Source of the DNA: a virus
DNA: 31,419 bases
IMG/VR virus record: IMGVR_UViG_3300014962_000037
Coordinates: 1-31,419 of that record
Strand: one strand, 5' to 3'
The notes under the pieces are model-generated. The model was not told where the DNA came from. It made no database searches and saw nothing but the letters and a program-made list of their open reading frames with translations. Made by a program: the position numbers and the translations under genes. Below, piece after piece: positions 39 to 14,330 of this stretch (the stretch's first letter is position 1; every line of letters starts with the position of its first letter).

Positions 39-209
39 ATGGGTGATGCAGATTGGTGGATTAACGAACAGATTGAGGAACGAATACACAGTTTGAAACA
101 AGATTGGAATGATTCACCCCCAATCCATTTATATGCTTGGTTAGAACAAGCATACCCCGAAGTGTTTAAACAATGGCAAGCAATTTACGATATTGAAAAG
201 GAAAGTTAA
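39..209 (+). CDS. Small hypothetical protein, 56 aa
   Basis: Starts at ATG 39 with AGAGG at 28-32 as a well-placed ribosome binding site, and ends in TAA two bases before the next ATG. The product is small, acidic and rich in Trp and Gln (MGDADWWINEQ...), predicted soluble and helical. The tail segment EVFKQW resembles EMFKQW in the protein at 3986-4261, in both cases where a GTTTAAAC palindrome overlaps the codons. No family is recognised. Confidence 0.7.
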   Translation: MGDADWWINEQIEERIHSLKQDWNDSPPIHLYAWLEQAYPEVFKQWQAIYDIEKES

Positions 210-210
210 A

Positions 211-1155
211 ATGGGATATTGGAGAAACACAAACAGTCCATACGATGTGCAACAACGAAATGGTGGCAGATTTACTTTTGAAACCATTGCCAAAAAGTAT
301 GAGGAAACCAAGCCAATCAGGGGCAAACGCAAAGACCAAAACATTAGACCGATTGGACAAAGGGACAGGTCTTGGGAACGCATGATTAAAGTATCTGATA
401 CTGAATACTATGTGTCATTCGACTACTACCAATATCGAAACCATCACAACAGGGGCATTACTTGGAAGATGGAAAATGGCATGGAATACATGACAATCCA
501 CACCCCAAAGAAAATGTGGACAGGCACAAACAATGAGTTATATCCACGCTACTTGTCATCGTCATCTACATATTGGTTTTATGATTTCAATATGCCAAAC
601 GAATTTAGCATGGCAAATTACCGAGCCAATAAGTATGTTCGCTATCAAAACAAGTATTACACCATTGAAAAGGGCGATATTACTTTCCAACGCAAACAAG
701 GTGGCAGTCCAACCGATTGGCAACCATTGGTGGTGCACAGAGAGTTTAAACACACGCTTGACCGCAAACAAACCAAAGAGTTGCGTAAACTAATCGACCC
801 ATTCCTACCATACTTTGACATCATGTGCGACATTGTGGGACACAACCAAGTATATGGGAATCATATTGCAAGGGCTATCAACAAAGGTGAGCATGGTAGT
901 GCAACACCCGAACAGGCATTGGCTTTGTTTAAACACGATGGCGAAGTGCCCGAAGAATGGTTAAGCATGGTGGAATATTACAAGTGTGATGTTAGCACCT
1001 ACCATTGGAAAACCGAAACCTATACCTACGAGAATAGAGTTGATTTAAGAGAAAAGATTGCACAACATTTATTTGAGATTGTGAAGCCATTTAAGTCCGA
1101 GCCAATAGAATTAGGTAAATTAGTGAACAACAGATATAAAGGGTGGTTTGAATAA
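211..1155 (+). CDS. Hypothetical early protein, 314 aa
   Basis: ATG 211 is preferred because AAGGA at 198-202 lies eight bases upstream; a TTG at 193 in frame would extend the protein by six residues but overlaps the previous gene. The N-terminal half is rich in Tyr, His, Trp and Arg (for example YYQYRNHHNRG), and no signal peptide or membrane segment is seen. The C-terminal part has an acidic, helical look (residues about 240-310). The stop overlaps the next start as TAATG, so the two genes are probably translationally coupled. No family is recognised. Its place at the head of the early cluster, next to a run of tiny genes, suggests a host-takeover role, but that is inference from position only. 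Confidence 0.8.
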   Translation: MGYWRNTNSPYDVQQRNGGRFTFETIAKKYEETKPIRGKRKDQNIRPIGQRDRSWERMIKVSDTEYYVSFDYYQYRNHHNRGITWKMENGMEYMTIHTPKKMWTGTNNELYPRYLSSSSTYWFYDFNMPNEFSMANYRANKYVRYQNKYYTIEKGDITFQRKQGGSPTDWQPLVVHREFKHTLDRKQTKELRKLIDPFLPYFDIMCDIVGHNQVYGNHIARAINKGEHGSATPEQALALFKHDGEVPEEWLSMVEYYKCDVSTYHWKTETYTYENRVDLREKIAQHLFEIVKPFKSEPIELGKLVNNRYKGWFE

Positions 1156-1982
1156 TGAACGACAATATTAAAGTAGCAAAATACAATGGTGTTGATACAT
1201 TCGAGGGTCTTGTGGATTTAATAAACGCAATCCACAAGGTAGTGCCTGACATTACATTTAAGCCCGAAGATATGCAAACTTATCACATCGATAGATGCTT
1301 TTATCCCGATGGCATAGCGTATTCATATCGTGTATTCCACAACGAAGATTTGAACAACCACATTGGTAGAGTGTCCCTCGAACATTGGGCTAGTAGCACC
1401 CCTAAGTATGGTATTCAAAGCATTAACATCGATGATGGTAGGCAATCGTATGGTCTTGATGGTCAATACAAAACATCAATCCATGCTAAGAATATTGTTC
1501 GAGTAGCCAAGAAGGTGTTTAAACCATTTACATTCGAGCAGATTGCTAATAGATGCAACCGACAATTCAAAGGCAGAATTGACAGTTTAGCCCAAAGTAT
1601 GCGATGGGAGTTGCGACAAAAAACTTGTGATGGCTATGAAGATTTATTAGCCGATTGGGAAAACCTATATCACATGGGCTATAAGCCAAAAAATGATAAC
1701 TTTAAAAAGATGATGGAATATGTCATGCAGAATAAAGAACGCATTGACAAATACAACAACTACAATCCCAATCATTACTTTGTTTTAATCAAAGATGACT
1801 GTGTGCAGTATCGTTTAAACATCGCACCAAAAGGTGAACCGCACATTACTGTGCCAAGTAAAGACCACCTACCCGATGAGATTAAGGGTAAGTTGTTCGT
1901 GCTAGACATCACCGACAAGCAAGACTTTGTGGAAGATGTTGGTTTAAAAGAAAACGATGGTGCGTATTGGATAATTGCATAG
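1155..1982 (+). CDS. Hypothetical early protein, 275 aa
   Basis: ATG 1155 overlaps the stop of the preceding gene (TAATG), a strong sign of coupling. The protein is soluble, with mixed charge and many Asp, Asn and Tyr residues; around residues 110-150 it has a basic helical stretch (NIVRVAKKVFKPF...). No signal peptide, membrane helix or known catalytic motif is visible. The C-terminus overlaps the TTG-started next gene by 16 bases. Two GTTTAAAC palindromes lie inside it, at 1517 and 1813, read in different frames (Phe-Lys and Leu-Asn), so they are not there for the protein's sake. Not recognised. Confidence 0.8.
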   Translation: MNDNIKVAKYNGVDTFEGLVDLINAIHKVVPDITFKPEDMQTYHIDRCFYPDGIAYSYRVFHNEDLNNHIGRVSLEHWASSTPKYGIQSINIDDGRQSYGLDGQYKTSIHAKNIVRVAKKVFKPFTFEQIANRCNRQFKGRIDSLAQSMRWELRQKTCDGYEDLLADWENLYHMGYKPKNDNFKKMMEYVMQNKERIDKYNNYNPNHYFVLIKDDCVQYRLNIAPKGEPHITVPSKDHLPDEIKGKLFVLDITDKQDFVEDVGLKENDGAYWIIA

Positions 1983-2170
1983 AAGTAGGCGATTGGGTCA
2001 TCATTGATGATGGTATCGTTGGTGAGGTGTGGAGTATGCACACTACCAACGATATTGTCGATGTATGGATTGAACGGGACAAGGGCTACATTGTAGAAAC
2101 CTTGCGGGTTCAGCATCACCGATTAACCAAGATAACTAAAGAAGTAGCTGATATAATAAAAGGTGTTTAA
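1967..2170 (+). CDS. Small beta-rich protein of the tandem 'DI(M/I)(R/K)GV' family, 67 aa, copy 1
   Basis: Starts at TTG 1967, inside the end of the previous gene; no in-frame ATG lies near the N-terminus and the segment VGDWVIIDDGIVGEVW matches the start of copy 4 (DDWVLIGNAKVGHLW). The alternating hydrophobic/charged pattern and Gly turns suggest a small SH3- or KOW-like beta barrel; that fold is inference. It ends TKEVADIIKGV, the family's shared tail, which is also encoded by the repeated junction cassette. TAA is embedded in GTTTAAAC at 2165. Function unknown; possibly binds nucleic acid or host protein. Confidence 0.65.
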   Translation: MDNCIEVGDWVIIDDGIVGEVWSMHTTNDIVDVWIERDKGYIVETLRVQHHRLTKITKEVADIIKGV

Positions 2171-2173
2171 ACG

Positions 2174-2371
2174 ATGCCAACAACATACCTAATGCACAAA
2201 ACTAGGAATATGGTGGGAGTTGCTGACCTACCTGAGTTTACTGACCTTGACGAACAACCACCACGCAGTTTTCAAATATGGTGGGAGGGTAATGCGGGAT
2301 ATACTCTATGCTCTACTTCGGTAGTTGTCCCGATTACCAAAGAGATATTTGACATAATGAGAGGTGTTTAA
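2174..2371 (+). CDS. Small tandem-family protein, 65 aa, copy 2
   Basis: ATG 2174 lies three bases after the previous stop; the ribosome site AAAAGG sits in the last codons of the preceding gene. The body (residues 1-50) shows little likeness to copy 1, but the last 13 residues, PITKEIFDIMRGV, match the family tail closely. A likely beta segment (SFQIWWEGNAGYTLCS) fits the same small-barrel idea. Stop TAA lies within GTTTAAAC at 2366. Function unknown. Confidence 0.65.
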   Translation: MPTTYLMHKTRNMVGVADLPEFTDLDEQPPRSFQIWWEGNAGYTLCSTSVVVPITKEIFDIMRGV

Positions 2372-2374
2372 ACG

Positions 2375-2596
2375 ATGTTTAAACTAAACCATTGGTATAT
2401 ACAAGATACTGTTTTAGTTTTGGTAAAAAGAAAAATACCACAAGTAGAAAAACCACTTCGCTATGACTATGAGGTGCAAGTTTGGGGTAAAGATTTTAGT
2501 CCAAGCACTACGGGGTTTGTTGCTAACGAAAAGTGTCATTTATTTACCGAAGTGCCTAAAGAAGTGGCAGATATAATGAGAGGTAATTATGAGTAA
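2375..2596 (+). CDS. Small tandem-family protein, 73 aa, copy 3
   Basis: ATG 2375 directly follows the cassette, and its first codons MFKL come from a second GTTTAAAC at 2377. The protein is rich in aromatic and basic residues and ends VPKEVADIMRGNYE, the family tail with a short extension where the cassette has changed to GAGAGGTAATTATG. It overlaps the next gene by eight bases. Probably a beta-rich small protein; function unknown. Confidence 0.65.
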   Translation: MFKLNHWYIQDTVLVLVKRKIPQVEKPLRYDYEVQVWGKDFSPSTTGFVANEKCHLFTEVPKEVADIMRGNYE

Positions 2597-2777
2597 ACCA
2601 AAAATAGATGATTGGGTGCTGATTGGCAACGCTAAAGTTGGTCATTTGTGGGACATTCGGGGCACGCATGGCATTGTGCAAGTTGAACAAGATGGATTTG
2701 CCCTTTCCCTCTCTTTCCCAATGGCAATACTAACCAAAATACCGAAATCGGTAGCTGACATAATGAGGGGTGTTTAA
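2589..2777 (+). CDS. Small tandem-family protein, 62 aa, copy 4
   Basis: ATG 2589 overlaps the previous gene; AGAGG at 2579-2583 serves as ribosome site. The N-terminal segment DDWVLIGNAKVGHLWDI resembles copy 1, followed by a VQVEQDGFALSL strand pattern, and the tail IPKSVADIMRGV matches the family. Copies 1 and 4 are the most alike end to end, so the cluster probably grew by duplication with later divergence of copies 2 and 3. Stop TAA lies in GTTTAAAC at 2772. Function unknown. Confidence 0.7.
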   Translation: MSKPKIDDWVLIGNAKVGHLWDIRGTHGIVQVEQDGFALSLSFPMAILTKIPKSVADIMRGV

Positions 2778-2780
2778 ACG

Positions 2781-3128
2781 ATGTTTAAATCAACAATACT
2801 AATAGAACGAATAGACAACCTGTTTATGGAACAGGGCGGGGGCAATGAAGTATTCCCTCGCTCTGAATTTATGCGAATGATTAGCACCAATTTAGATAAG
2901 CCCATAGAACAGGTGTGGCGGGTTAGTTTCCAAAACAATGGAGTGGATTTTTATAGTTTTGCCATGCCACAAAAAAATTTATCCATAGCGCAGCGTTTAA
3001 ACGATGTGTCGCAGCTTCCCATCTGGGCACAAGAGAGAATTGCAGTCTTGCAGATATGCGAGGTGGGCGAAACTGTTGATGGTGTGGGTCAAAAAGTATC
3101 TGAAAAGGTGTTCTATGTCATTGAGTAG
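2781..3128 (+). CDS. Hypothetical protein, 115 aa
   Basis: ATG 2781 follows the fourth junction cassette and begins MFK like copy 3. The protein has an N-terminal helical segment with a Gly-rich turn (EQGGGNEV), then a beta-like half (QVWRVSFQNNGVDFYSF) and a C-terminal acidic part. No family is recognised. It lacks the family tail, so it seems to be the first unrelated gene after the tandem array. A GTTTAAAC site at 2995 encodes Leu-Asn here. Confidence 0.65.
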   Translation: MFKSTILIERIDNLFMEQGGGNEVFPRSEFMRMISTNLDKPIEQVWRVSFQNNGVDFYSFAMPQKNLSIAQRLNDVSQLPIWAQERIAVLQICEVGETVDGVGQKVSEKVFYVIE

Positions 3129-3243
3129 CAAATACGATGATTTTGGCGAATTGGTGTGGCAAGAGCCAAAACGCAAGAGAAAACCATCAAAAAAATTTAC
3201 CTTTAACGCGGTGTTTAAACAGCTTGGCGAGGCACTAATTTGA
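3115..3243 (+). CDS. Small basic protein, 42 aa
   Basis: ATG 3115 is chosen over an in-frame ATG at 3004 because it has AAAAGG about ten bases upstream and avoids a long overlap with the previous gene. The centre is strongly basic (PKRKRKPSKKF), suggesting nucleic-acid binding or a disordered linker. It overlaps the previous gene by 14 bases and ends in TGA that overlaps a TTG start. Function unknown. Confidence 0.5.
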   Translation: MSLSSKYDDFGELVWQEPKRKRKPSKKFTFNAVFKQLGEALI

Positions 3244-3374
3244 ACATAATTGGTGCGGTGGTATTCATACCCCTTTATATTGTGATATGGGTAGTCCAAA
3301 CCCTAACTGATATGCCTTATTACTTTTGGTTATGCTTTTTGGGCTGGTGGGCATATAGGTATTACAAAAAGTAA
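3240..3374 (+). CDS. Small membrane protein with two predicted helices, 44 aa
   Basis: A TTG start at 3240 overlaps the previous TGA (TTGA), with GCGAGG about nine bases upstream. Residues 3-21 (IIGAVVFIPLYIVIWVVQT) form a clear membrane segment, and residues 25-38 (MPYYFWLCFLGWWA) a second hydrophobic aromatic one; the tail is basic (YRYYKK), so both ends may face the cytoplasm. Too small and out of place for a normal holin; possibly a host-membrane-directed early protein. The non-ATG start is the main doubt. Confidence 0.55.
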   Translation: MNIIGAVVFIPLYIVIWVVQTLTDMPYYFWLCFLGWWAYRYYKK

Positions 3375-3389
3375 TAAGTATGGTATAAT
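3362..3389 (+). promoter_or_regulatory. Extended -10 promoter before the sigma-like gene
   Basis: TATAAT at 3384-3389 is a perfect -10 box with TG one base upstream (TGGTATAAT, 3381-3389), the classic extended -10. Only a poor -35 is present (TTACAA, 3362-3367, 16-base spacer). Transcription would begin near 3396, giving a leader of about 25 bases before ATG 3421. Compare TGGTATAGA at 4842-4850. Confidence 0.6.
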
Positions 3390-3420
3390 CGGTGTTTTAC
3401 ATTCCACATTGTGAAACCCG

Positions 3421-3993
3421 ATGACCCAAAATGATATTCTAAGTGATTACTTACAGTCCCTCTATGGCATAGAACCCCTATCTGTCGAGGAAGAACACGA
3501 ATTAGCCAAAAGAATACAAAAGGGCGACCAAAAAGCCCTTGAGAAGCTAATTAGGCACAATTTGAGGTTTGTTGTGTATGTTGTGCGGGGATTGACCGCA
3601 TGGCAACATGGCAAGACCCCTGTTGAGGATATTCTGAGCATGGGCAACGAAGCCCTGTTTATGTCAGCAAGGGTGTGGAAACCCACAAATAACTCAGGAT
3701 TTGCCACCTTTGCCAAGCCATTCATTCTTAGAGGTGTTAAGCGGGAGTTGAACAACACCGAGAACCTAATCCGCTTGCCTGTCAATATTATGCTTGATAT
3801 TAAGCGTTTAAAAGTGGCAGAGAAAACCCTATCCCAAACCCTGTGTAGGCAACCTTCTAAGAGGGAAATTGCCAAAATTACTGGTATGTCGGAAAACAGG
3901 ATAGACGAGTTGCAAAACCACATAATTCGTGAACCAAGCGGATTACATGAACTTAATAACGATGACCACTTTGAGGAGAAACAAGATGACTGA
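3421..3993 (+). CDS. Phage sigma70-family factor lacking region 4, 190 aa
   Basis: The protein aligns in order with primary sigma factors: region 1.2 (residues 4-33, DILSDYLQSLYGIEPLSVEE), region 2.1 (36-60, RHNLRFVVYVVRGL), 2.2 (68-84), 2.3-2.4 (92-110, FATFAKPFILRGVKREL) and region 3 (115-172, LIRLP... to EPSGL). It then ends in an acidic tail (residues 176-190), so the region 3.2 finger and the region 4 domain that reads -35 boxes are absent. In region 2.3-2.4 the usual Trp-Trp-Ile-Arg-Gln is replaced by Pro-Phe-Ile-Leu-Arg, which predicts altered melting and -10 recognition. It should bind host RNA polymerase through region 2 and direct it to extended -10 type or activator-assisted promoters, as T4 gp55 does. 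Own promoter upstream; no strong ribosome site seen. Confidence 0.85.
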   Translation: MTQNDILSDYLQSLYGIEPLSVEEEHELAKRIQKGDQKALEKLIRHNLRFVVYVVRGLTAWQHGKTPVEDILSMGNEALFMSARVWKPTNNSGFATFAKPFILRGVKRELNNTENLIRLPVNIMLDIKRLKVAEKTLSQTLCRQPSKREIAKITGMSENRIDELQNHIIREPSGLHELNNDDHFEEKQDD

Positions 3994-4261
3994 TGAACAA
4001 AAGCAAAAATATGCCCTCTTTATACAGGCTAGGGACAAAATCCGCAATTCTAATAAGTGGATACCGCCAAAAGATGTGGTGTGCTCAGTTGATGTGACTG
4101 GGCTAAATCACCCCCTCTATCAGGCAAATTACCCCTATTTGCACTATCAGGAGATGTTTAAACAATGGCTGGAAGTTGAACCCGAATACAGGAAAAAGGA
4201 AAGAATGAGCATGATTAGAGGTGATTACAACAAACAAGATACTTGGAAGGGTGAAAAATGA
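3986..4261 (+). CDS. Hypothetical protein, 91 aa
   Basis: ATG 3986 is preferred over an in-frame upstream start at 3929 because GAGGAG lies seven bases before it; it overlaps the sigma-like gene by eight bases, so both are probably co-translated. The product is soluble, rich in Tyr, Lys and Gln, with a helical N-terminus (DEQKQKYALFIQARDKI) and the segment EMFKQWLEVEPEYRK. Function unknown; its close coupling to the sigma-like gene makes an accessory role in transcription possible but unproven. Confidence 0.7.
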   Translation: MTDEQKQKYALFIQARDKIRNSNKWIPPKDVVCSVDVTGLNHPLYQANYPYLHYQEMFKQWLEVEPEYRKKERMSMIRGDYNKQDTWKGEK

Positions 4262-4449
4262 GAGCAATACCAGTAGATATTTACGATAAAGATGGCAACC
4301 TTGTAAAAATTGAGGTCACAAATCCTGAAGGTGAGTTTATAATACAATCCTTATGGGACCCGACTGACGAGCAAACCCATGAGAATAGAGTTAATTTTAG
4401 AACTTGGACTTACAACCATTTAAGGAAAATAGGATATGAAATCGATTAA
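4258..4449 (+). CDS. Hypothetical protein, 63 aa
   Basis: ATG 4258 overlaps the previous stop as ATGA; AAGGGTGA upstream gives the ribosome site. The first half looks like a short beta domain (IPVDIYDKDGNLVKIEV), followed by a helical C-terminus with Trp and Tyr. No family recognised. It overlaps the following secreted-peptide gene by 14 bases. Confidence 0.65.
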   Translation: MRAIPVDIYDKDGNLVKIEVTNPEGEFIIQSLWDPTDEQTHENRVNFRTWTYNHLRKIGYEID

Positions 4450-4576
4450 AACCATAGTAGCAACCCTCTTCTTAGTTCAATCTTTGAGCGTTTTGGCAGA
4501 TACGGTCATCGTCAACACCCCAAGCGGTGGTCAGACGGTCTGTATCGTCCAGGGGAGCGTAATTACCTGCTTTTAA
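4436..4576 (+). CDS. Small secreted peptide with two cysteines, 46 aa
   Basis: ATG 4436 with AAGGA at 4422-4426. The N-terminus is a model signal peptide: MKSIK, a hydrophobic core (residues 6-19), then SVLA before a likely signal peptidase I cut after Ala-21. The predicted mature peptide is about 25 residues, beta-prone, with a Gly-Gly turn and two cysteines (C36 and C45) able to form a disulphide in the periplasm. It is the last gene before the strong terminator at 4602. Export of a tiny disulphide peptide by a lytic-style phage suggests envelope action such as superinfection exclusion or lysis control; this is inference. Confidence 0.75.
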   Translation: MKSIKTIVATLFLVQSLSVLADTVIVNTPSGGQTVCIVQGSVITCF

Positions 4577-4584
4577 GCAAAATT

Positions 4585-4703
4585 GTCACAGTAGTCACAG
4601 TAGTCAGGGTCTAATTCACTTTACCCTGACTTTTTTATTTTTTATTTTTTAATTTTAAAAAAATAAATAAAATAAAGGGTGACTACTATGACTACTATGA
4701 CTA
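4585..4703 (+). repeat. Inverted iterons around an AT tract
   Basis: The left arm 4585-4605 (GTCACAGTA twice, then GTC) and the right arm 4681-4701 (GACTACTAT twice, then GAC) are reverse complements at 19 of 21 positions. The two mismatches fall at the same place in each 9-bp unit. The arms enclose the terminator and a homopolymer-rich A/T tract. This could be paired binding sites for the replication protein or a large cruciform. Confidence 0.7.
4602..4636 (+). terminator. Intrinsic terminator ending the early unit
   Basis: A perfect 9-bp stem, AGTCAGGGT (4602-4610) with ACCCTGACT (4623-4631), has a 12-base loop and is followed by TTTTTTATTTTTT. It lies 25 bases after the stop of the secreted-peptide gene and should end plus-strand transcription from the sigma-factor promoter. 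Confidence 0.85.
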
Positions 4704-4823
4704 AAGTTGTTAACTGGAGTCATTTGTCGCTAAAATTGGGCTATCTTCGGTTAACGTGTGTCAGGGTATGACCAAAATTGTCTACATAACTTCTAGTTAT
4801 ATGGCTTATAACTAAATATTATA

Positions 4824-4850
4824 TTGAATTTCGTTTAAACATGGTATAGA
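4824..4850 (+). promoter_or_regulatory. Promoter of the replication operon
   Basis: TTGAAT (4824-4829), a 15-base spacer and TATAGA (4845-4850) with an extended -10 TG (TGGTATAGA, 4842-4850). The spacer contains a GTTTAAAC palindrome at 4833-4840, where a bound protein would block RNA polymerase. The predicted transcript starts at about 4857, leaving almost no leader before ATG 4860, so the message may be nearly leaderless. Confidence 0.5.
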
Positions 4851-4859
4851 ATTCGTTAT

Positions 4860-7172
4860 ATGAATACAAAACCTACCACCCTACCAGTATTATTTGAAAA
4901 CATACCGATGGAGCTAAAAAGAATCCCTCGTTGGGTTCTATGGCGATTTGTAGAAGTGGGAAGCGGAGACACCAAGCGGTGGTCAAAGCTCCCCGCACAA
5001 CCAAACGGGCAATCTGCTTCCTCAACCAACCCAGCTACTTGGGCTGACTTTCTGACAGTCCAATCTGCCTATGAGTCCAACCCAACCCGTTTTGACGGTG
5101 TTGGATTCGTATTTAGTGATGAGGACAACCTAATCGGGGTAGACTTAGACGATTGCTACGATAACTCCTCCCAAGTGTTCACCAATGCTGCACTGCAGCA
5201 ATTAGCGGATAACATCGAGGGCTATATGGAGGTTTCCCCATCTGGCACAGGAGTGAAGATATTTACTCGCTCCATCCTAGCCAATGCCCATGTTGACCAC
5301 ACTAAAGGATTGGAGGTTTACCCTCGAGGTAGATATTTTACGGTCACAGGGCATCGTTTAAACGGCGCCATACCACAAGAAGCACAAGACCTAACCGCCT
5401 TCATACCAGCTAGAACCATCCGTTCAACTGGCGATGCGTTTGAGGACTATGCCCCACCTGTTGCGGACTACGACTTGCACAGAGTGGAGACTGAGATACT
5501 AGCCCACCTTGACCCTAACTGCGGATACACAGATTGGCTCAATGTAGGGTTTGCCCTCCACCATCAGTTTGGCGGGGACTACGAAGCCCTTGAGTTATGG
5601 GAAAGATGGTCTTATGGGGATGGCTCGGTGCACAACTACGCATCCGGTCAATGCGATGATAAGTGGTCAACCTTCAAGGGGTCGGGTGCAACTCTCAGAT
5701 CGCTTATATTCAAGGTCAACCAACAAGAGCGAAAAGAAGCCCTTTCTAGAGGCGAAATTATCCTTGACTCTGGGGCGATGAACCATGCCCGCACCTTCTT
5801 AGACAACCTTTACTCTTCTGAGGAAGGCTACCGTCTTGTGCACTATGCACAGGATTTTTATCTCTACAATACAACCCACTACGAGGTCACAGAAGAGGCT
5901 ACTATCCGTTCCAAACTCTATGCCCTCTTAGATAAATGCAAGCGCACAGGTAAAAAGGGCGCACTAGAACCGTTCAATCCGTCCCCAGCAACCGTATCTG
6001 CGGCTTTGGATGCGATTAAGTCTATCACCCACTTACCCAACCACGTAAACACCAAGCCACCAATTTGGTTAGAAGCATACGCACAGGACAAACCGGATGC
6101 TTCTAAGCTCATTTCGCTACAAAACGGTATCTTCCACCTAGAAGACTCACTGCTCATGCCACACTCACTGGGCTTCTTTACACAAAACTCGCTACCGTTT
6201 GCTTACGATCAGTCCGCCACGTGCCCACAATGGCTCTCCTTCCTTAAATCCGTTTGGGGTGACGACCAAGAATCGATTGACACCCTACAAGAGATGTTTG
6301 GCTACATTCTCTCAGGGGACACTCGCCAGCAGAAGTTTTTTAACATTATCGGTCCACGTCGCTCAGGCAAAGGCACGATTAATAAAATCCTCGTTGCCCT
6401 CTTAGGTCAACATAACACCGTCGCACCACAACTGGAGGAACTCTGTGATACATTCGGTCTTCAACCTTGGCTGGGTAAGTTATTGGCTAGTTTTACTGAT
6501 GCTCGGGCTCCTGAGCGGAATCGTTCTGCTGTTGTATCTCAGCTTTTACGTATTGTTGGTGGAGATACGATTACGGTTAACAGAAAAAACAAAGAAAGCT
6601 GGAACGGATACCTCCCAACCCGAATAGTCATCTATTCCAACGAAGTGCTTCAACTTACAGAGAACTCCAACGCACTCACTGGTCGCATGATTGTGCTAAA
6701 AATGAGCAAGTCGTTCTATCAGAACGAAGATACTGAGCTTTCCTACAAACTGGAGCAAGAACTCTCAGGCATTTTTAACTGGGCGATGGAAGGGCTACGA
6801 CGCAGATTGGAGCGTGGCGGTCACTTTATCCAACCTAAGACAGGCGTAGAGTTGTTAGAACTTATGGCTGAACTGGGCAACCCAATCGGTTCGTTTGTAG
6901 AAGATGCCTTGGTTTTTGACCCAGATGCAAAAGTATCTAAAGACGAAGTGTTTGCTTGTTATAAGCACTGGGCGCTAAAGAAGAGTATAGTGCCAGGAAC
7001 AGAGTTAGCGTTTAAACGTCGTTTCTTGGCTGCCACACAAGAACACCGTATTGAGTCTGCGTTAGACAGAACTGATGGCAACCGAACCCATGTGTATCGT
7101 GGTATTCGATTAAGCGAGAGAGCACAGAAGTATGTGGACTCAATTCAAACATTTGATGAAGGAGTATTTTAA
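4860..7172 (+). CDS. Primase-polymerase / SF3 helicase, D5-P4 type, 770 aa
   Basis: A multidomain replication protein. Residues about 15-170 resemble the archaeo-eukaryotic primase (PrimPol) fold of NrS-1-type phage polymerases, with the acidic pair in GVDLDD (D95, D97), SPSGTGVKIF (126-135) and a later His (TVTGH, H165). Residues about 207-285 fit a PriCT-type domain. Residues about 300-480 match the D5 N-terminal region. Then comes an SF3 helicase with Walker A GPRRSGKGT (498-506), a Walker B-like LLASFTDA (541-548), motif C ending in N594 (IVIYSN) and an arginine-finger candidate R609 (TGRM). It should make primers and unwind DNA at the origin just upstream. No Shine-Dalgarno is seen and the promoter lies very close, so translation may begin on a leaderless message. 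Confidence 0.9.
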   Translation: MNTKPTTLPVLFENIPMELKRIPRWVLWRFVEVGSGDTKRWSKLPAQPNGQSASSTNPATWADFLTVQSAYESNPTRFDGVGFVFSDEDNLIGVDLDDCYDNSSQVFTNAALQQLADNIEGYMEVSPSGTGVKIFTRSILANAHVDHTKGLEVYPRGRYFTVTGHRLNGAIPQEAQDLTAFIPARTIRSTGDAFEDYAPPVADYDLHRVETEILAHLDPNCGYTDWLNVGFALHHQFGGDYEALELWERWSYGDGSVHNYASGQCDDKWSTFKGSGATLRSLIFKVNQQERKEALSRGEIILDSGAMNHARTFLDNLYSSEEGYRLVHYAQDFYLYNTTHYEVTEEATIRSKLYALLDKCKRTGKKGALEPFNPSPATVSAALDAIKSITHLPNHVNTKPPIWLEAYAQDKPDASKLISLQNGIFHLEDSLLMPHSLGFFTQNSLPFAYDQSATCPQWLSFLKSVWGDDQESIDTLQEMFGYILSGDTRQQKFFNIIGPRRSGKGTINKILVALLGQHNTVAPQLEELCDTFGLQPWLGKLLASFTDARAPERNRSAVVSQLLRIVGGDTITVNRKNKESWNGYLPTRIVIYSNEVLQLTENSNALTGRMIVLKMSKSFYQNEDTELSYKLEQELSGIFNWAMEGLRRRLERGGHFIQPKTGVELLELMAELGNPIGSFVEDALVFDPDAKVSKDEVFACYKHWALKKSIVPGTELAFKRRFLAATQEHRIESALDRTDGNRTHVYRGIRLSERAQKYVDSIQTFDEGVF

Positions 7173-7321
7173 TGACTGAACAAGAAGAAAAGTTTGCGTT
7201 TGCAATGGCCGCTTTGATGGGGCTCGTGGCAAGGGGCGCTTCACCGGCGGAGGTGCGTGACATGATGTGGACTTACGCTGAATTTGCTTTCTCTGGTAAG
7301 CCTAAAGATGAGAACGCTTAA
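7172..7321 (+). CDS. Small acidic helical protein, 49 aa
   Basis: ATG 7172 overlaps the primase stop (TAATG), with GAAGGAG eight bases upstream. The product begins MTEQEEKFAFAMAALMG and looks like two amphipathic helices. It may be a small replication accessory protein given its coupling to the primase-helicase; no family is recognised. Confidence 0.6.
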   Translation: MTEQEEKFAFAMAALMGLVARGASPAEVRDMMWTYAEFAFSGKPKDENA

Positions 7322-7550
7322 TCGCAACAAAACAATCAAGCGCAACAACTTCACCACTATCTTTGGTGGTGTGGGAACGCGCAAGTCAGTTGTGTTGCCA
7401 CGACCAAAAGTCAAAGCCCTACGCACTAAGATGCAGATGTATCGTCGTGCCGCACAGGGCTGGCGCAACCAAACCTTTGGCAGACTGACTGCCTTAAAGT
7501 TAGTGTTGAAATACGGCAGACGCAAACCCATTCGGAGATTTATTAAATGA
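7308..7550 (+). CDS. Small very basic protein, 80 aa
   Basis: ATG 7308 lies 14 bases inside the end of the previous gene; an in-frame TTG at 7284 is less likely. The protein holds many Arg and Lys residues spread along its length (RTLNRNKTIKRNNF, YGRRKPIRRFIK) and no acidic cluster, which points to nucleic-acid binding. It ends in an ATGA overlap with the next gene. Function unknown. Confidence 0.6.
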   Translation: MRTLNRNKTIKRNNFTTIFGGVGTRKSVVLPRPKVKALRTKMQMYRRAAQGWRNQTFGRLTALKLVLKYGRRKPIRRFIK

Positions 7551-7711
7551 CAACACGAGATGGTGGTAAGGGCGACCGTCAACGTCCACTCGGTGTACCA
7601 AAAGAACAGTTTGAAGCAAACTGGGATGCAATCTTTAAGAAGCCATCTAAGCTCACTGAGAAGATTGTCAAGCAGGTAGAGCAGTCCATTAAGGAGAATA
7701 AAAATGACTGA
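7547..7711 (+). CDS. Small charged protein, 54 aa
   Basis: ATG 7547 shares ATGA with the previous stop. The N-terminus is Gly- and Arg-rich (TTRDGGKGDRQRPLGV), followed by a Lys/Glu helix (KLTEKIVKQVEQSIKE). Not recognised. It overlaps the next start by eight bases. Confidence 0.6.
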   Translation: MTTRDGGKGDRQRPLGVPKEQFEANWDAIFKKPSKLTEKIVKQVEQSIKENKND

Positions 7712-7784
7712 AGGCGAAGCAATAATAGTTTTCTTAATTATGAACGCCATTGTGCTGACATGGTTATGGAGTAAATGCAAATGA
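7704..7784 (+). CDS. Single-helix membrane microprotein, 26 aa
   Basis: ATG 7704 has a strong AAGGAG at 7691-7696. Residues 5-22 (EAIIVFLIMNAIVLTWLW) form one membrane helix with a short basic tail (SKCK). It overlaps both neighbours. Such single-pass microproteins are common in phage gene clusters, and the function is unknown. The strong ribosome site is the main support for so short a gene. Confidence 0.5.
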   Translation: MTEGEAIIVFLIMNAIVLTWLWSKCK

Positions 7785-8044
7785 ACGCAAATGAACTAGC
7801 TGATAAATTGGAAAACGCATTAGACGAAGATAGCTGGTGCCAAGAGTGTGCTTTGGAAAATACTGATCCGGTTGCAAGACAAGCAGCCACCATGCTCCGC
7901 CAATTACAAGCAGAAAATGGGGCGTTGAAAAGCCGTGAACTAACGGATGAGGAAATATATGAAATTTGGCGAACTTGCGATTGCAGTCCTGATGACCCAG
8001 TTTGTTTTGCTAAAGCAATATTAAGAAAGGCACAAGAGAAATGA
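7781..8044 (+). CDS. Two-module small protein (MNANELAD + LTDEEI), 87 aa
   Basis: ATG 7781 is chosen over ATG 7775 because GGAG (7768-7771) is then nine bases away and because two later paralogues start with the same MNAN(E/Q)LAD. Residues 1-50 form module one, ending in a coiled-coil heptad (AATMLRQLQAENGALK). Residues 52-87 form module two (RELTDEEIYEIW...FAKAILRKA) with several cysteines. Module one recurs at 8217 and 8433, and module two at 8609 and 8785, so this gene is either their fusion or their source. Function unknown; the helical heptads suggest oligomers or binding to a partner. Confidence 0.7.
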   Translation: MNANELADKLENALDEDSWCQECALENTDPVARQAATMLRQLQAENGALKSRELTDEEIYEIWRTCDCSPDDPVCFAKAILRKAQEK

Positions 8045-8220
8045 CCTCAATACTTGTTTGGTATTTGGTATCTGTCAGCGATGGCGGTTATAACAGAGGA
8101 AATGTTCAGTATTCGCCACCATTGGCAACACTAGAAGATTGCCAAAGAATACAGAAATCTTTTAACCCTTCAATTGTTTATTCCCAATGTGTTCAAGTAA
8201 GAAAGGTGCAAGAGAAATGA
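8041..8220 (+). CDS. Hypothetical protein, 59 aa
   Basis: ATG 8041 overlaps the previous stop (ATGA). The start MTSILVWYLVSVSDGG looks like a beta strand or short hydrophobic segment, followed by a domain with two cysteines (LEDCQRI, YSQCVQVRK). The pattern resembles small phage proteins predicted to be exported or beta-folded, but no family is recognised. It ends with KVQEK, like the KAQEK end of the previous gene, because the DNA before both MNANELAD starts is also repeated. Confidence 0.6.
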   Translation: MTSILVWYLVSVSDGGYNRGNVQYSPPLATLEDCQRIQKSFNPSIVYSQCVQVRKVQEK

Positions 8221-8423
8221 ACGCAAATGAACTAGCTGATTACTTGGAAAACAGAGAATTTAGAATTCCAAATCATAACGAAATTAAAGCCGCCACCATG
8301 CTCCGCCAGCTACAAGCCGAGAACGAGGCGTTGAAAAAGGCTTACGAGGAGGAAAGAAAATACGCCCGTTACTTAAGTAACCTTTGTACTGAAAACGACA
8401 TACAAATTATTTGGTATTTTTAA
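8217..8423 (+). CDS. MNANELAD coiled-coil protein, 68 aa
   Basis: ATG 8217 overlaps the previous stop as ATGA, with AAAGGTG about ten bases upstream. Residues 1-8 and the heptad AATMLRQLQAENEALKK are nearly identical to those in the protein at 7781, but the region between is shorter and the second module is replaced by YEEERKYARYLSNLCTEND. DNA at the start is close to identical over about 27 bases in the 7781 and 8217 genes, so the duplication is recent. Confidence 0.7.
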   Translation: MNANELADYLENREFRIPNHNEIKAATMLRQLQAENEALKKAYEEERKYARYLSNLCTENDIQIIWYF

Positions 8424-8432
8424 GGATAAGAA

Positions 8433-8612
8433 ATGAACGCAAATCAACTAGCTGATGAATTACAAGCAGTACTATTTGCTTGTGGCAAAGAAAGACCATT
8501 TTTAGAGCATGCAAAAATGCTACTCCAGCAACAAGCTGAAATCGAGGCGTTGAAAGAGCAGTTACGCATGAAGCTAATTGTAAACAAAAGCATAGAGGAC
8601 ATGTTGAAATGA
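8433..8612 (+). CDS. MNANQLAD coiled-coil protein, 59 aa
   Basis: ATG 8433 with AAGGA at 8422-8426. The third copy of the module, with the same head (MNANQLADEL) and a diverged heptad (AKMLLQQQAEIEALKEQL). It ends in an amphipathic helix and shares ATGA with the next gene. Function unknown. Confidence 0.65.
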   Translation: MNANQLADELQAVLFACGKERPFLEHAKMLLQQQAEIEALKEQLRMKLIVNKSIEDMLK

Positions 8613-8788
8613 CCACCCCCACCACACAAGACCGACAAGATGTGCAACGTACTCCGTTGACTGATGAGCAGATTCAAAAATGTAGCGAAGAGGCTTATGA
8701 CCGATACATTGAAGAATGCGAACACCCTAAGAGCTGGTACTTCGCCCGCGCCATCGAGCGCGCCCACGGAATAGGAGATGTAGAATGA
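8609..8788 (+). CDS. LTDEQI-module protein, 59 aa
   Basis: ATG 8609 overlaps the previous stop. The first 15 residues are a polar linker. Then comes PLTDEQIQKCSEEAYDRYIE and WYFARAIERAHGIG, matching module two of the 7781 protein (LTDEEI ... CFAKAILRKA) and the next gene. Probably a small helical hairpin; function unknown. Confidence 0.65.
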   Translation: MTTPTTQDRQDVQRTPLTDEQIQKCSEEAYDRYIEECEHPKSWYFARAIERAHGIGDVE

Positions 8789-8931
8789 CACCACTCACCG
8801 AAGAGCAGATTAAGCAACTCTGGAAACAGGCCGAAGATGATCTCTATGCCGCATGGAAAAACGGCGAGAACATCATCTTCAAAACCATGTTTGTAAGAAT
8901 CATTGAACGCCATTACGGAATAGGAATATGA
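8785..8931 (+). CDS. LTEEQI-module protein, 48 aa
   Basis: ATG 8785 overlaps the previous stop. This is the module on its own: PLTEEQIKQLWKQA, an Asp/Asn-rich turn, then TMFVRIIERHYGIGI. It aligns with the protein at 8609 over most of its length. GGAATAGGAG(A/T)-type DNA is shared at both 3' ends, so this is a tandem duplicate. Function unknown. Confidence 0.65.
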   Translation: MTPLTEEQIKQLWKQAEDDLYAAWKNGENIIFKTMFVRIIERHYGIGI

Positions 8932-9098
8932 CAAACAATCAAATATCAGAACTCATTAAGCTCTACTCCATCGATGGCGTATTGCGTGTATGGGAATACA
9001 CTCGCGCAGTAGAAGCAGAGATACTAGAAGATTTTAAGCAAGCAGATGCCATGGGGTATCAGGCTTATCAAAACAAGAAAGGATTAGATAATGGCTAA
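8928..9098 (+). CDS. Hypothetical protein, 56 aa
   Basis: ATG 8928 shares ATGA with the previous stop; AATAGGAA upstream may act as ribosome site. The product is helical and acidic (SELIKLYSIDGVLRVWEYTRAVEAEILED) and overlaps the next start by eight bases. Not recognised. Confidence 0.6.
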   Translation: MTNNQISELIKLYSIDGVLRVWEYTRAVEAEILEDFKQADAMGYQAYQNKKGLDNG

Positions 9099-9648
9099 TA
9101 AGAAGCCGTATTACGTTATAAAAGTGCCGATTTTCCCGGCAAACATCCATGTATGCTTTGATGAGCCTGCGTTTAAACAAGCCCTCACCGATAAGAACGT
9201 GCCACAAAAAATCGAGTATCTTGAGAACGGTGCAATGGCTGAGACCCATTCCATTCCAACTGCAGACGGGCGAACGTTTATTGGTTTGATTCTGGACCTA
9301 AAAGCAATTGATGATCTGGATTCAACTTTGGTGCATGAGTCTGTGCACTTGGTATATCGAATCTTTGAATACATCAATGAAGAAACGCCGGGCGAAGAGA
9401 CACGTGCCTATTTAACTGAATACATTTACAAACAAATCAAGAAGGTGATCGATGAGCCTAACGTTAGAAAAAGATATAGAGAGATACTTGACGAAAAGAA
9501 TCAAGCAGTTATCGGGGCTTTGCTACAAATGGCAGTCGACGATAACGGGAGTGCCGGACAGGATAGTAATCCTAAACCAAAAGATTCTGTTCGTAGAACT
9601 AAAAACACCGACCGGAAGACTGTCACCAAGACAAATCCTCGTGTTTGA
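9091..9648 (+). CDS. HExxH zincin-like protein, 185 aa
   Basis: ATG 9091, with AAAGGA upstream. Residues 78-113 hold a metallopeptidase-type motif: STLVHESVHLVYRIFEYI (H82, E83, H86), then GEETRAYLTEYI, in which E102/E103 could be the third zinc ligand as in small phage and ImmA-type zincins. The first 75 residues look like a beta domain. From about residue 121 the frame runs out of register through the next gene for 197 bases and encodes a low-complexity polar tail (NPKPKDSVRRTKNTDRK) that is probably not ancestral. It may cleave a host or phage regulator, or be a structural relative without activity. Confidence 0.65.
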   Translation: MANKKPYYVIKVPIFPANIHVCFDEPAFKQALTDKNVPQKIEYLENGAMAETHSIPTADGRTFIGLILDLKAIDDLDSTLVHESVHLVYRIFEYINEETPGEETRAYLTEYIYKQIKKVIDEPNVRKRYREILDEKNQAVIGALLQMAVDDNGSAGQDSNPKPKDSVRRTKNTDRKTVTKTNPRV

Positions 9649-9730
9649 TGAATTGGGTGAGGCAGGGTTTCCTGTCCACATTATCAGATCAAAAGAAGAC
9701 GTAGAGGATTTTATTAATGGCGTTTACTGA
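9452..9730 (+). CDS. VRR-NUC domain nuclease, 92 aa
   Basis: A compact VRR-NUC (PD-(D/E)XK superfamily) protein: E6 in the first helix, GVPDRIVIL (D36), FVELK (E49, K51) and Q61. These are the expected metal-binding and catalytic residues, and the length is usual for stand-alone phage members. In many phages this gene lies next to an SNF2-type helicase and is thought to process branched DNA in recombination or replication; here an HNH-like gene lies between them. ATG 9452 has AAGG five to ten bases upstream. The overlap with the previous frame is unusually long. Confidence 0.85.
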   Translation: MSLTLEKDIERYLTKRIKQLSGLCYKWQSTITGVPDRIVILNQKILFVELKTPTGRLSPRQILVFDELGEAGFPVHIIRSKEDVEDFINGVY

Positions 9731-10379
9731 CGACTACAAAAGAACTATCAAAGGCAGAGCTAATTCTCTTCTAGGCAACGCTCGAAAACGTTGCAAAGAA
9801 AAAGGAATAGAACTGCACATAACGCAAGAATGGGTAGAAGAACATCTGACACGTGGCACTTGTGAAATAACCGGATTGCATTTTTGTTTTGAACCACCAG
9901 ATCAAAAAGCAACCCGCCGTTGGGACGCACCGTCATTAGATCGAATTGATAAAGATAAACACTATACAGAAGACAACACAAGAGTTATACTATGGGCTGT
10001 GAATTGCGCATTGTCAGAGTACGGAACAAAAATAATGTTGCCAATTTTAAAAGCAATGGTTAAGGGAATAGAAAGTGCTAACAAGAAAACAACTACACCA
10101 TTACCAACAGGACATTATTCAAAAAGCTCAGAGCATACCAAACATTGGATTGTTCCTCCCACCGGGGCTGGGGAAGACGACTACTACCCTCACCATCATT
10201 GCGGAGCAGATGCAAGGGAAGACTTTGATAATTGCCCCGAAACGAGTGGCGGAGACAGTGTGGCACACCGAAATAAAAAAGTGGAGCCACTTGAAACACC
10301 TGAGAGTGAGCAAGATAATTGGGAACTCAACTCAACGTATGGCTGGATTGAATGCCGAGGCAGACGTATATTTGATTAA
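9717..10379 (+). CDS. HNH-like endonuclease with a run-on tail, 220 aa
   Basis: ATG 9717 overlaps the VRR-NUC gene by 14 bases. Residues 1-105 fit the phage HNH family with CEITGLHF (C49) and APSLDRIDKDKHYTEDNTRV (72-91), where the DRID motif and N87 and N96 are characteristic; the second zinc-type Cys pair is not obvious. These are often free-standing homing endonucleases. From residue 120 on, the frame passes out of register through the first 305 bases of the helicase gene and encodes an odd His/Pro/Glu-rich tail. This looks like an insertion that lost its own stop codon. Confidence 0.7.
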   Translation: MAFTDDYKRTIKGRANSLLGNARKRCKEKGIELHITQEWVEEHLTRGTCEITGLHFCFEPPDQKATRRWDAPSLDRIDKDKHYTEDNTRVILWAVNCALSEYGTKIMLPILKAMVKGIESANKKTTTPLPTGHYSKSSEHTKHWIVPPTGAGEDDYYPHHHCGADAREDFDNCPETSGGDSVAHRNKKVEPLETPESEQDNWELNSTYGWIECRGRRIFD

Positions 10380-11421
10380 CCTGGAAAACGTAGCGTGGCT
10401 TTTTAGCGTTTTAGATAAGTTAGTGTTCACTAACTTAGTGATTGATGAGTCATCTAGATTTAAAGACCCATCAACCAAACGATTCAAGGCGCTTAAAAAG
10501 CATTTAAAAGGGTTTAAGAGGCGCATTATTCTTACAGGCACCCCCACCCCTCAAGGCATGGGTGATCTTTGGTCACAAGTAGGTATTCTCGATCTTGGAG
10601 AGCGTTTAGAGACTAGCCTCACACGTTTTCGGGACAAGTATATGCAACCCGATCAGATGAACAGGCATACTCGTGTTGTGTATAGCTGGAAGTTAAAACT
10701 AGGTGCAGACAAACAAATACAAGAAAAAATATCTGACATTTGTTTTTCGTTGCGAGCAGAAGATTATCTTGAGTTGCCTGAGTGTACTAAACTGTATCAT
10801 TCGATTGAGTTAGATAAACCGGTAAAAGCTAAATATGAACAACTTAGAAAAGACATGGTCGCTGAAATCAAGGGGCAACAAATCACAGCTCCGACAGCAG
10901 CAGCATTGGCGAACAAGCTCCTGCAATTTACGTCTGGAGCAATCTACAATGAAGAGGGACAAGCACAAGAAGTACACAGTACTAAACTGGAATTCCTTGA
11001 GTCGATCATGGAGGAATCTTCCTCGCCGACCTTGGTGTTCTACCATTTCAAGCACTCGCTTACGCGAATACAGGAATCTTTCCCGCAAGCTGTGGTGCTG
11101 GACGATGACAACATTGAGGCGTGGCGTCGTGGCGAGATTCGTATGCTCCTCGCCCATCCCCAGTCCGGGGGGATCGGGCTTAATTTACAGTGCAACGTCG
11201 GAGAGACAGCACAAACGGTCTGGTTCGATTTACCATGGAGCTCAGAGAACTACATCCAAGCCAATGCACGTATATACCGCCAAGGGCAAGAAAAGCCGGT
11301 TATTATACACCATTTAGTTGTGTCTAATAGCGTGGATGAGCATGTAGTAAAAGTATTAGATGGTAAAATTAACTTACAAGAGGCACTTTTAGATTCGCTG
11401 AACTATGACAACAAAACATAA
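10075..11421 (+). CDS. SNF2-family DNA helicase/translocase, 448 aa
   Basis: GTG start at 10075 with AAGGGA about eight bases upstream; the start is fixed by the helicase motif LHHYQQDII right after it. Motif I is PPGLGKTTTT (29-38), motif II VIDESS (122-127), motif III LTGTPTP (153-159). The C-terminal lobe carries SGGIGLNLQ (motif V) and ARIYRQGQ (motif VI). The length is that of the compact phage SNF2 proteins that accompany VRR-NUC. Likely moves along duplex DNA to remodel replication or recombination intermediates. It overlaps the next gene by 17 bases. Confidence 0.9.
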   Translation: MLTRKQLHHYQQDIIQKAQSIPNIGLFLPPGLGKTTTTLTIIAEQMQGKTLIIAPKRVAETVWHTEIKKWSHLKHLRVSKIIGNSTQRMAGLNAEADVYLINLENVAWLFSVLDKLVFTNLVIDESSRFKDPSTKRFKALKKHLKGFKRRIILTGTPTPQGMGDLWSQVGILDLGERLETSLTRFRDKYMQPDQMNRHTRVVYSWKLKLGADKQIQEKISDICFSLRAEDYLELPECTKLYHSIELDKPVKAKYEQLRKDMVAEIKGQQITAPTAAALANKLLQFTSGAIYNEEGQAQEVHSTKLEFLESIMEESSSPTLVFYHFKHSLTRIQESFPQAVVLDDDNIEAWRRGEIRMLLAHPQSGGIGLNLQCNVGETAQTVWFDLPWSSENYIQANARIYRQGQEKPVIIHHLVVSNSVDEHVVKVLDGKINLQEALLDSLNYDNKT

Positions 11422-11710
11422 AATAAACGCAGCTACTCCACGGCTTTCAGACGAGGACCTAGACCCCATTGAGCAAGACGATACACCTGACGGTTATCAC
11501 GTATTGCAAGAGGGTTGGCTTTTGTGGGATGATGATGATATAATGGACATCCGTAATTTAATTAAAAACAAGATGCCGCAAAAGCAAAGTTTTATTTTGA
11601 CAGCATTCTTGGATGGTCACAATTATTATGACATCGGGGTAAGCGAAAAGTATTGGCGCTATCACTTTGCTAAAGGTATTGAGTTCATTAAAAAGGAATT
11701 AAAGCTATGA
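11405..11710 (+). CDS. Sigma region-4-like helix-turn-helix protein, 101 aa
   Basis: ATG 11405 overlaps the helicase end. The first 55 residues are acidic and probably disordered (DEDLDPIEQDDTPDG, WDDDDIMD). Residues 57-100 (KMPQKQSFILTAFLDGHNYYDIGVSEKYWRYHFAKGIEFI) follow the pattern of sigma region 4 and related HTH activators: a helix, a short turn at DIGVS and a recognition helix. Phages often have such a late regulator after the VRR-NUC/SNF2 pair. Given the region-4-less sigma factor at 3421, it may supply the missing function in trans; this is inference. Confidence 0.6.
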   Translation: MTTKHKINAATPRLSDEDLDPIEQDDTPDGYHVLQEGWLLWDDDDIMDIRNLIKNKMPQKQSFILTAFLDGHNYYDIGVSEKYWRYHFAKGIEFIKKELKL

Positions 11711-13101: not shown

Positions 13102-13123
13102 GGGCGGAAATCTCCTGTTTTTT
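13098..13123 (+). terminator. Weak intrinsic terminator
   Basis: AGGGG (13100-13104 region) can pair with CTCCT (13112-13116 region) over a short loop, with one wobble pair, followed by GTTTTTT to 13123. The stem is short, so it may work only partly. It marks the end of the 9091-13101 operon. Confidence 0.4.
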
Positions 13124-13147
13124 GCATTAGTAGATATAGGGTAGTAT
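13119..13147 (+). promoter_or_regulatory. Promoter-like element before the packaging genes
   Basis: TAGTAT (13142-13147) could be a -10 box. TTTTTG (13119-13124) lies 17 bases upstream, and a better TTGCAT (13122-13127) lies 14 bases upstream. It begins with the 15-base string TTTTTTGCATTAGTA, which recurs exactly at 14312. The next gene starts at 13210, so a leader of about 55 bases rich in CACA would result. Confidence 0.35.
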
Positions 13148-13209: not shown

Positions 13210-13470
13210 ATGTTATCCCCATTTGAAATGCGTTTCAACGTATTTAATACAGCCAAGGAAATCTTGGAAGCCCAATACAAGGCAAATTTAGACGCTTGGA
13301 AGCTCTTAGACAAGACCACCAAAGAAGTAGCTGATCTAGCCCCTAAGTACCCAACCGTATCCGAAATCTTGGATAAAGCCTTGGAAATCAACAAGTTCGT
13401 GAGCGAAAGCACACAGAACGAAATCGTTAAAATTGCTAAACGTGCAACAGGCGTTGGCGTAATATTCTAA
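13210..13470 (+). CDS. Helical protein, 86 aa
   Basis: ATG 13210 with AGGAG (13199-13203) six bases upstream; an in-frame upstream start at 13156 lacks a ribosome site. The protein is almost wholly helical (MRFNVFNTAKEILEAQYKANLDAWKLL as the first helix, then VSEILDKALEINKFV and NEIVKIAKRAT). It is phasin-like in general appearance and reminiscent of uncharacterised small proteins in marine phages, by pattern only. Well-expressed signals (strong ribosome site, own promoter) suggest an abundant protein. Function unknown. Confidence 0.7.
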   Translation: MLSPFEMRFNVFNTAKEILEAQYKANLDAWKLLDKTTKEVADLAPKYPTVSEILDKALEINKFVSESTQNEIVKIAKRATGVGVIF

Positions 13471-13631: not shown

Positions 13632-13897
13632 TGGCAACTAAGAAAAAAGGCCCAAACCTATCAGTCGGTCGTGGCGAAAAGCTACCGGTCTCCCAAGGCG
13701 CTGGATTGACAGCTAAGGGTCGTGCCAAGTACAACCGTGAAACCGGTTCCAATTTAAAAGCGCCCCAACCTGAGGGCGGTCCCCGTAAAAAATCATTCTG
13801 CGCACGCATGTCCGGCATGCCAGGTCCTATGAAGGACGAGAATGGCAAACCAACACGCAAAGCAGCATCCTTAAAAAGGTGGAAGTGTGGCAGCTAA
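13631..13897 (+). CDS. DUF6321-like small basic protein, 88 aa
   Basis: ATG 13631 overlaps the previous stop. The core GLTAKGRAKYNRETGSNLK, the PQPEGGPRKKSFCARM segment and the end AASLKRWKCG are typical of the DUF6321 family of small phage and bacterial proteins. It is strongly basic with two Cys (C57 and C86 approximately). Function is not known; it sits between another basic protein and a probable packaging protein, which suggests DNA binding. The last bases overlap the GTG of the next gene. Confidence 0.75.
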   Translation: MATKKKGPNLSVGRGEKLPVSQGAGLTAKGRAKYNRETGSNLKAPQPEGGPRKKSFCARMSGMPGPMKDENGKPTRKAASLKRWKCGS

Positions 13898-14289: not shown

Positions 14290-14317
14290 AAAAGGGGCTT
14301 GACATAGCCCCTTTTTT
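14290..14317 (+). terminator. Strong intrinsic terminator
   Basis: A perfect 10-bp stem, AAAAGGGGCT (14290-14299) with AGCCCCTTTT (14306-14315), a 6-base loop TGACAT and a run of six T to 14317. It closes the unit that ends with the putative small terminase. Confidence 0.9.
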
Positions 14318-14330
14318 GCATTAGTATAAA
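14299..14330 (+). promoter_or_regulatory. Promoter-like element overlapping a terminator
   Basis: A perfect TTGACA -35 (14299-14304) lies in the terminator loop, and TATAAA (14325-14330) lies 20 bases on, a longer spacer than normal. The -10 sits in the TAGTA context seen at other gaps. If active it would serve the DUF2800 gene. Confidence 0.35.

Follow-up and report, generated by a model that had tools for sequence, protein, structure and literature searches.

Sigma factor gene and its surroundings

The sequence examined here is a viral contig of 31,419 bases (the window), which belongs to an uncultivated freshwater phage lineage. Two contigs of this lineage lie in a single metagenome bin that bears the name of a betaproteobacterium, which is weak evidence on the host. 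At the locus under study, the gene of a truncated sigma factor is found together with the following features.

3361..3389, + strand: host-type extended -10 promoter, ATTACA-17-TATAAT with TG, directly 5' of the sigma gene
3401..3418, + strand: operator-like inverted repeat TTCCACATTGTGAAA, between the host-type promoter and the sigma start codon
3421..3993, + strand: sigma70-family protein (label A2), regions 1.2-2-3 plus the start of 3.2, region 4 absent
3986..4261, + strand: conserved 91-aa protein, ATG at 3986 and stop at 4261, start codon inside the end of the sigma gene
4603..4630, + strand: intrinsic terminator, hairpin of -13.2 kcal/mol (z -4.4), then a T run

The ORF at 3421-3993 starts with ATG and its product has 190 aa. 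When the protein was compared with Pfam, Sigma70_r1_2 (E 1.4e-7, 31.8 bits) and Sigma70_r3 (E 2.5e-6, 27.9 bits) were matched above the cut-off, Sigma70_r2 was matched with 16.6 bits, which is under the 24-bit cut-off, and no match to region 4 was detected within the chain. PHROG 351 'RNA polymerase sigma factor' was matched with an E value of 4e-20, and the top solved relatives were SigA and RpoS, with a continuous alignment over residues about 5-176. The AF2 model showed low confidence (pLDDT 62.6) and served solely to confirm the family. In IMG/VR, 19 relatives were found with a single-sequence query and 214 with an alignment query, and in isolated phages the protein has distant homologues only, with an identity of at most about 34%.

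The C-terminus is located 185-192 residues past the match start in all 79 closed relatives (79/79), and the chain ends with an acidic tail, which in most of these relatives is preceded by REP[VI]S[LI]D. By alignment, this motif (REPxxL) matches E503-P504 of RpoD, where region 3.2 starts, and thus the 190-aa protein terminates inside 3.2, not after region 3. An earlier reading of this DNA, made from the sequence alone, had described a sigma70 protein without region 4 that ends in an acidic tail at residue 190; this anatomy was borne out by the Pfam and PHROG matches and by the 79 relatives, and of the endpoint proposed there, after region 3, the truncation holds and the exact end does not, as the chain reaches the start of 3.2. 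A frameshift or sequencing error that conceals a downstream region 4 was also checked and can be ruled out because of the common endpoint in 79/79 closed relatives, so the truncation is an evolved form of the sigma gene. In the RpoD-numbered alignment, T96 corresponds to T429, P100 to W433, F101 to W434, R104 to Q437 and K107 to T440. According to this alignment, the usual -10 recognition residues are replaced, which agrees on these residues with the earlier claim that the melting and -10 residues of region 2.3-2.4 are changed. Loss of the WW pair alone is not exotic, because Group 3 sigma factors likewise do not have it, as in the FSTYAV motif of SigG (PMC3601020).

Stretches comparable to the host-type promoter (GTGGTATAAT/GTGGTATAC) are located at the 5' side in relatives L002, L015 and L017. 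Inverted repeats of the TTTCACAATGTGAAA type, which are probably operators, were found 5' of the sigma, primase and SSB genes in relatives. The 91-aa ORF overlaps the sigma gene by 8 nt in a different frame, and the overlap is kept in the relatives looked at, with translational coupling of the two genes being probable. As the 91-aa protein gave no sigma-like match and no family match, it was rejected as a carrier of the missing region 4, and it may be a third member of the sigma system. The terminator at 4603-4630 ends the early gene block and is located 5' of the primase gene.

Several other features of the window were recorded. The palindrome GTTTAAAC is present 17 times, compared with 1.0 expected and a maximum of 4 in 200 simulations; its copies span 164-9178, with one at 16424, and lie mostly in the early genes, often directly before start codons, and it is frequent in some relatives and absent from others. 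The ORF at 9717-10379 encodes an HNH/endonuclease VII-like protein with a weak match (E 5e-4) to PHROG 4592 'decoy of host sigma70', which is probably due to the nuclease domain. A B12-dependent (class II) ribonucleotide reductase is encoded at 16605-18479 within the replication gene block, and the minus strand encodes, at 26060-31330, a protein of 1,756 aa that contains a long NPNVNPN repeat as well as two runs of polyproline.

Region-4-like protein encoded downstream

By scanning the window for an HTH able to replace region 4, we found one ORF, located 7.4 kb 3' of the sigma gene.

11405..11710, + strand: region-4-like protein (label A1), 101 aa, acidic N-terminus, linker, shortened HTH

The 101-aa protein has at least 302 relatives, and no relative was found in isolated phages. 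Its N-terminus carries a conserved acidic PRLSDEDxDPIEQDD, its HTH falls about 4 residues short of the usual length, and EKYWRxHF, the putative recognition stretch, does not vary across the aligned family. No Pfam Sigma70_r4 or r4_2 match above the cut-off was obtained for 27 members, and the commonest Pfam match was Sigma70_r4_2, which was sub-threshold in 9 of the 27 (best E 0.0085). Using hhalign with the family, ECF sigma4 was matched with 43% probability (55 columns, collinear), LuxR with 13% and HTH_3 with 0.05%, and the comparison of the protein with a thin profile of four sigma C-termini gave no match; a PDB sequence search also gave no useful match. The part of the AF2 model from around residue 43 onward is confident, and the top structural match of the model was region 4 of SigR, with an rmsd of 2.0 over 57 residues and a Z of 7.9, which is under the decisive level of the tool, and nearly all leading rows of the structural search were sigma region 4. 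Judging from the model, the ORF looks like a diverged sigma-region-4-like protein with weak similarity at the sequence level, and the region 4 missing from the 190-aa protein is probably supplied in trans by it. A single contig encodes a second, diverged copy of the region-4-like protein (L019:4700-5038), about 1 kb 5' of the sigma gene.

Among 20 contigs that carry the sigma gene, 11 also have the region-4-like gene, and among 20 that carry the latter, 14 have the sigma gene. Contigs with a single gene contain just 0-6.9 kb downstream or 2.2-5.3 kb upstream on the relevant side, and this fits an explanation of the absences by contig ends. When 24 different contigs with both genes were compared, the sigma gene was upstream on the same strand at a distance of 5.8-11.4 kb in all of them (24/24). 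The two genes are co-inherited within one lineage, which says nothing of interaction. The truncated anatomy, its conservation and the linked region-4-like gene can be seen directly in these contigs.

Phage promoters and their two classes

The motif TTTGCATTA was first met as a recurring element 5' of the primase gene in relatives, and the -10 block of the lineage is TTTGCATTA[G/T/A]TAT. In the fetched phage DNA, 231 distinct TTTGCATTA[G/T/A]T sites were counted, with a density of 3-7 per 20 kb versus 0.2-0.5 expected; the window alone contains 2 sites versus 0.9 expected. In 66 cases out of the 231, a GGGCG begins exactly 19 bases 5' of the motif, compared with an expectation of about 0.15 per position, and almost none is located at other positions. 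The spacer between GGGCG and TTTGCATTA was 14 in 79/79 cases, by which GGGCG falls at -38 to -34, the -35 position where region 4 would bind. At some sites the start codon is located less than 20 bp past the start of the motif, which implies that the motif is near the transcription start. Two sites in the window, which are likely targets of the 190-aa protein, are as follows.

13102..13133, + strand: late-type (class I) promoter with GGGCG at 13102-13106, a 14-bp spacer and TTTGCAT-TAGTAG, followed by a small gene (13210-13470) and by the gene of the terminase small subunit (13887-14273)
14299..14327, + strand: phage-type -10 block TTTGCATTAGTAT with spacer 17 to a TTGACA that replaces GGGCG, 5' of the exonuclease gene (14363-15496)

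The assignment of TAGTAT as the -10 hexamer is supported by the second site, which reads TTGACA-17-TAGTAT. With this one class I site and one site with a TTGACA -35, the clade of the window deviates from the others, and no motif was found 5' of its primase gene or its region-4-like gene. The promoters named in the sequence-only reading, at 3381 and near 4842, probably do not serve this protein: the former (3361-3389) has the extended -10 form of a host-type promoter, and the phage motif is absent at the latter.

Sites were assigned to class II (-10 block without GGGCG) or class I (-10 block and GGGCG). In counts that contain many orthologous sites, for which a Fisher value does not stand for a probability, class II was found 5' of the exonuclease gene in 44/44 cases (counting 4 with a TTGACA-like -35), the primase gene in 40/40, the region-4-like gene in 30/30, the SSB gene in 27/27 and the DNA polymerase gene in 10/11. 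Class I was found 5' of the terminase small subunit (TerS) operon in 49/49 cases, the portal gene in 4/4 and the GroES operon in 2/2. Sites of the TerL operon were mixed (2 class I and 10 class II), some of them with near-GGGCG variants. In one genome (G002), GGGCG was present at 4/4 sites, which precede different genes. The -10-only promoters are located before genes for replication and for the region-4-like protein, and the two-block promoters before packaging and head genes. When IMG/VR was scanned blindly for the composite motif, at least 78 new DNA pieces were retrieved, at least 53 of which contain core genes of the lineage. Of the long motif-bearing contigs without the sigma gene, the four that were checked are fragments of the same lineage that do not contain the primase-sigma segment.

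Within a genome, one -10 variant is common to nearly all sites. Genomes with T96 in the sigma protein have TAGTAT, and genomes with A96 or G96 have TATTAT or TAATAT. A third clade, with RGVERG in the sigma protein, has CGTATTAGT in both class II and class I promoters, with the distance to GGGCG unchanged. The -10 labels, placed on a tree built from 45 sigma proteins, require two changes, which is the minimum, and changes of the -10 block track changes of the sigma protein in two independent events. The two promoter classes with fixed spacing, their gene assignment and this clade-wise co-variation are direct observations, and the co-variation is as expected if the sigma protein, or a co-inherited factor, reads the -10 block. 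Since several other sigma columns separate the same clades as well as residue 96, this residue is a candidate, not a proof.

Discussion

We consider it rather probable that the phage has a sigma factor in two parts, of which the 190-aa protein is the subunit that binds core and reads -10. In the proposed mechanism, host polymerase would make this protein early, from the host-type promoter with the operator-like repeat, and the protein would bind host RNA polymerase via regions 1.2-3, as its homology suggests, and recognise TTTGCATTA[G/T/A]TAT, the -10 block of the phage. By itself or with minor assistance, it would start the -35-less middle promoters of the primase, exonuclease, SSB and DNA polymerase genes, and in many relatives of the region-4-like gene as well. 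The 101-aa protein made in this middle phase would then complete the factor: placed on the beta flap in trans, it would recognise GGGCG at -35 and turn on the late packaging and head promoters. Binding to polymerase, the pairing of each protein with its block and the timing are what we infer here. More tentatively, the split sigma can be regarded as a timer, in which the promoter class corresponds to the presence or absence of the second subunit; this is a possibility that we hold somewhat short of an even chance.

The most serious alternative concerns the second protein, which could be an independent activator with a sigma4-like HTH that binds GGGCG and touches polymerase, while the 190-aa protein reads the -10 block. 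Late regulators of the RinA/ArpU type are independent activators with a sigma4-like HTH, and their genes in Gram-positive prophages have a place resembling that of the 101-aa gene, which follows a SNF2 helicase gene. Sigma4-like and LuxR-like HTHs are also hard to distinguish at this divergence. However, GGGCG is located exactly at -38 to -34 with a single spacer length in 79/79 cases, the phage sigma itself lacks a region 4 that could occupy the flap, and the top structural matches of the 101-aa model are sigma region 4, and we therefore regard the activator as unlikely.

The remaining two alternatives deny the 190-aa protein a role in reading phage promoters. In one, it would be a competitor or decoy on core polymerase or the beta-prime clamp that shuts off the host without promoter specificity, as the absent region 4 and the replaced -10 residues could suggest. 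This is very unlikely, because the phages have promoters of their own, in which the -10 block changes together with the protein, and no T7-type polymerase that could read these promoters was detected in 12 contigs of 31-68 kb. For the same reason, of the two roles offered in the sequence-only reading, a competitor of host sigma is disfavoured and a promoter-specificity factor is supported by the co-varying phage promoters, although the partner at 11405-11710 and the promoter set had been overlooked. In the other, the motifs would be promoters of an undetected phage RNA polymerase and the sigma-like protein would have another role. T7 promoters are compact, about 20 bp, and often have TATAGG at the end, and the motif here is likewise compact at about 20 bp, with many sites ending in TATAGG. 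However, GGGCG is located at the sigma -35 distance, the window has a TTGACA-17-TAGTAT site, the -10 register fits sigma factors, and no T7-type RNA polymerase (PF00940) was detected in 12 contigs of 31-68 kb with a search in which the T7 positive control gave E 1e-109. We thus consider this explanation highly improbable.

Bipartite sigma factors as such are already known, and a discussion of sigma factors without which SPO1 and T4 do not develop is available (PMC9429907). In SPO1, the two phage proteins gp33 and gp34 lead to late transcription from the promoter CGTTAGA(N17-19)GATATT, with -35-like and -10-like blocks (PMC3601020). The two-part factor proposed here resembles this system in having two phage proteins and late promoters with two blocks, but, judged from its description, SPO1 is of another lineage with another promoter sequence, and the present phages, unlike SPO1, have two classes of promoter, which differ in the presence of the upstream block. 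In T4, the sigma2-type protein gp55, which consists of sigma region 2 and an HLH motif, works with gp33, which replaces region 4 on the beta flap and is structurally unrelated to it (PMC7892883). The gp55-like logic with regions 1.2 and 3 kept, as proposed in the sequence-only reading, is supported here: compared with gp55 in the gp55/gp33 system with its clamp gp45, the present protein retains regions 1.2 and 3, and compared with gp33, the 101-aa protein resembles a true region 4 and has a conserved upstream DNA block. SigO-RsoA of Bacillus subtilis is a sigma factor naturally split in two proteins, both of which are required (PMC10028694); the order of the domains is printed in reverse in PMC10141391. 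In this host system, the cut is between sigma4 (SigO) and sigma2 (RsoA), whereas in the phage it is between 1.2-3.2 and linker-4. In the primary and Group 3 sigma factors SigA, RpoS and SigB/F/G, regions 1.2, 2 and 3 align with the 190-aa protein, but the latter has no region 4 in its chain and, in the alignment, replaced -10 residues. What sets the present case apart from the known bipartite sigmas is where the chain is cut, the set of promoters and an apparent link between subunit and promoter class. No published account of this split or promoter was found in a search limited to the open literature.

Sigma factors are normally a single chain that reads -10 and -35 together. In this lineage, with hundreds of uncultivated relatives, the reading of -10 and -35 is apparently separated and each is tied to a gene class. 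If true, the split sigma would be a clean test of the contribution of region 4 to promoter choice, and it would provide two orthogonal parts usable for AND-gate expression. In addition, the middle and late genes of these phages would become predictable from sequence alone, and a second piece that is added late may let the virus time its genes.
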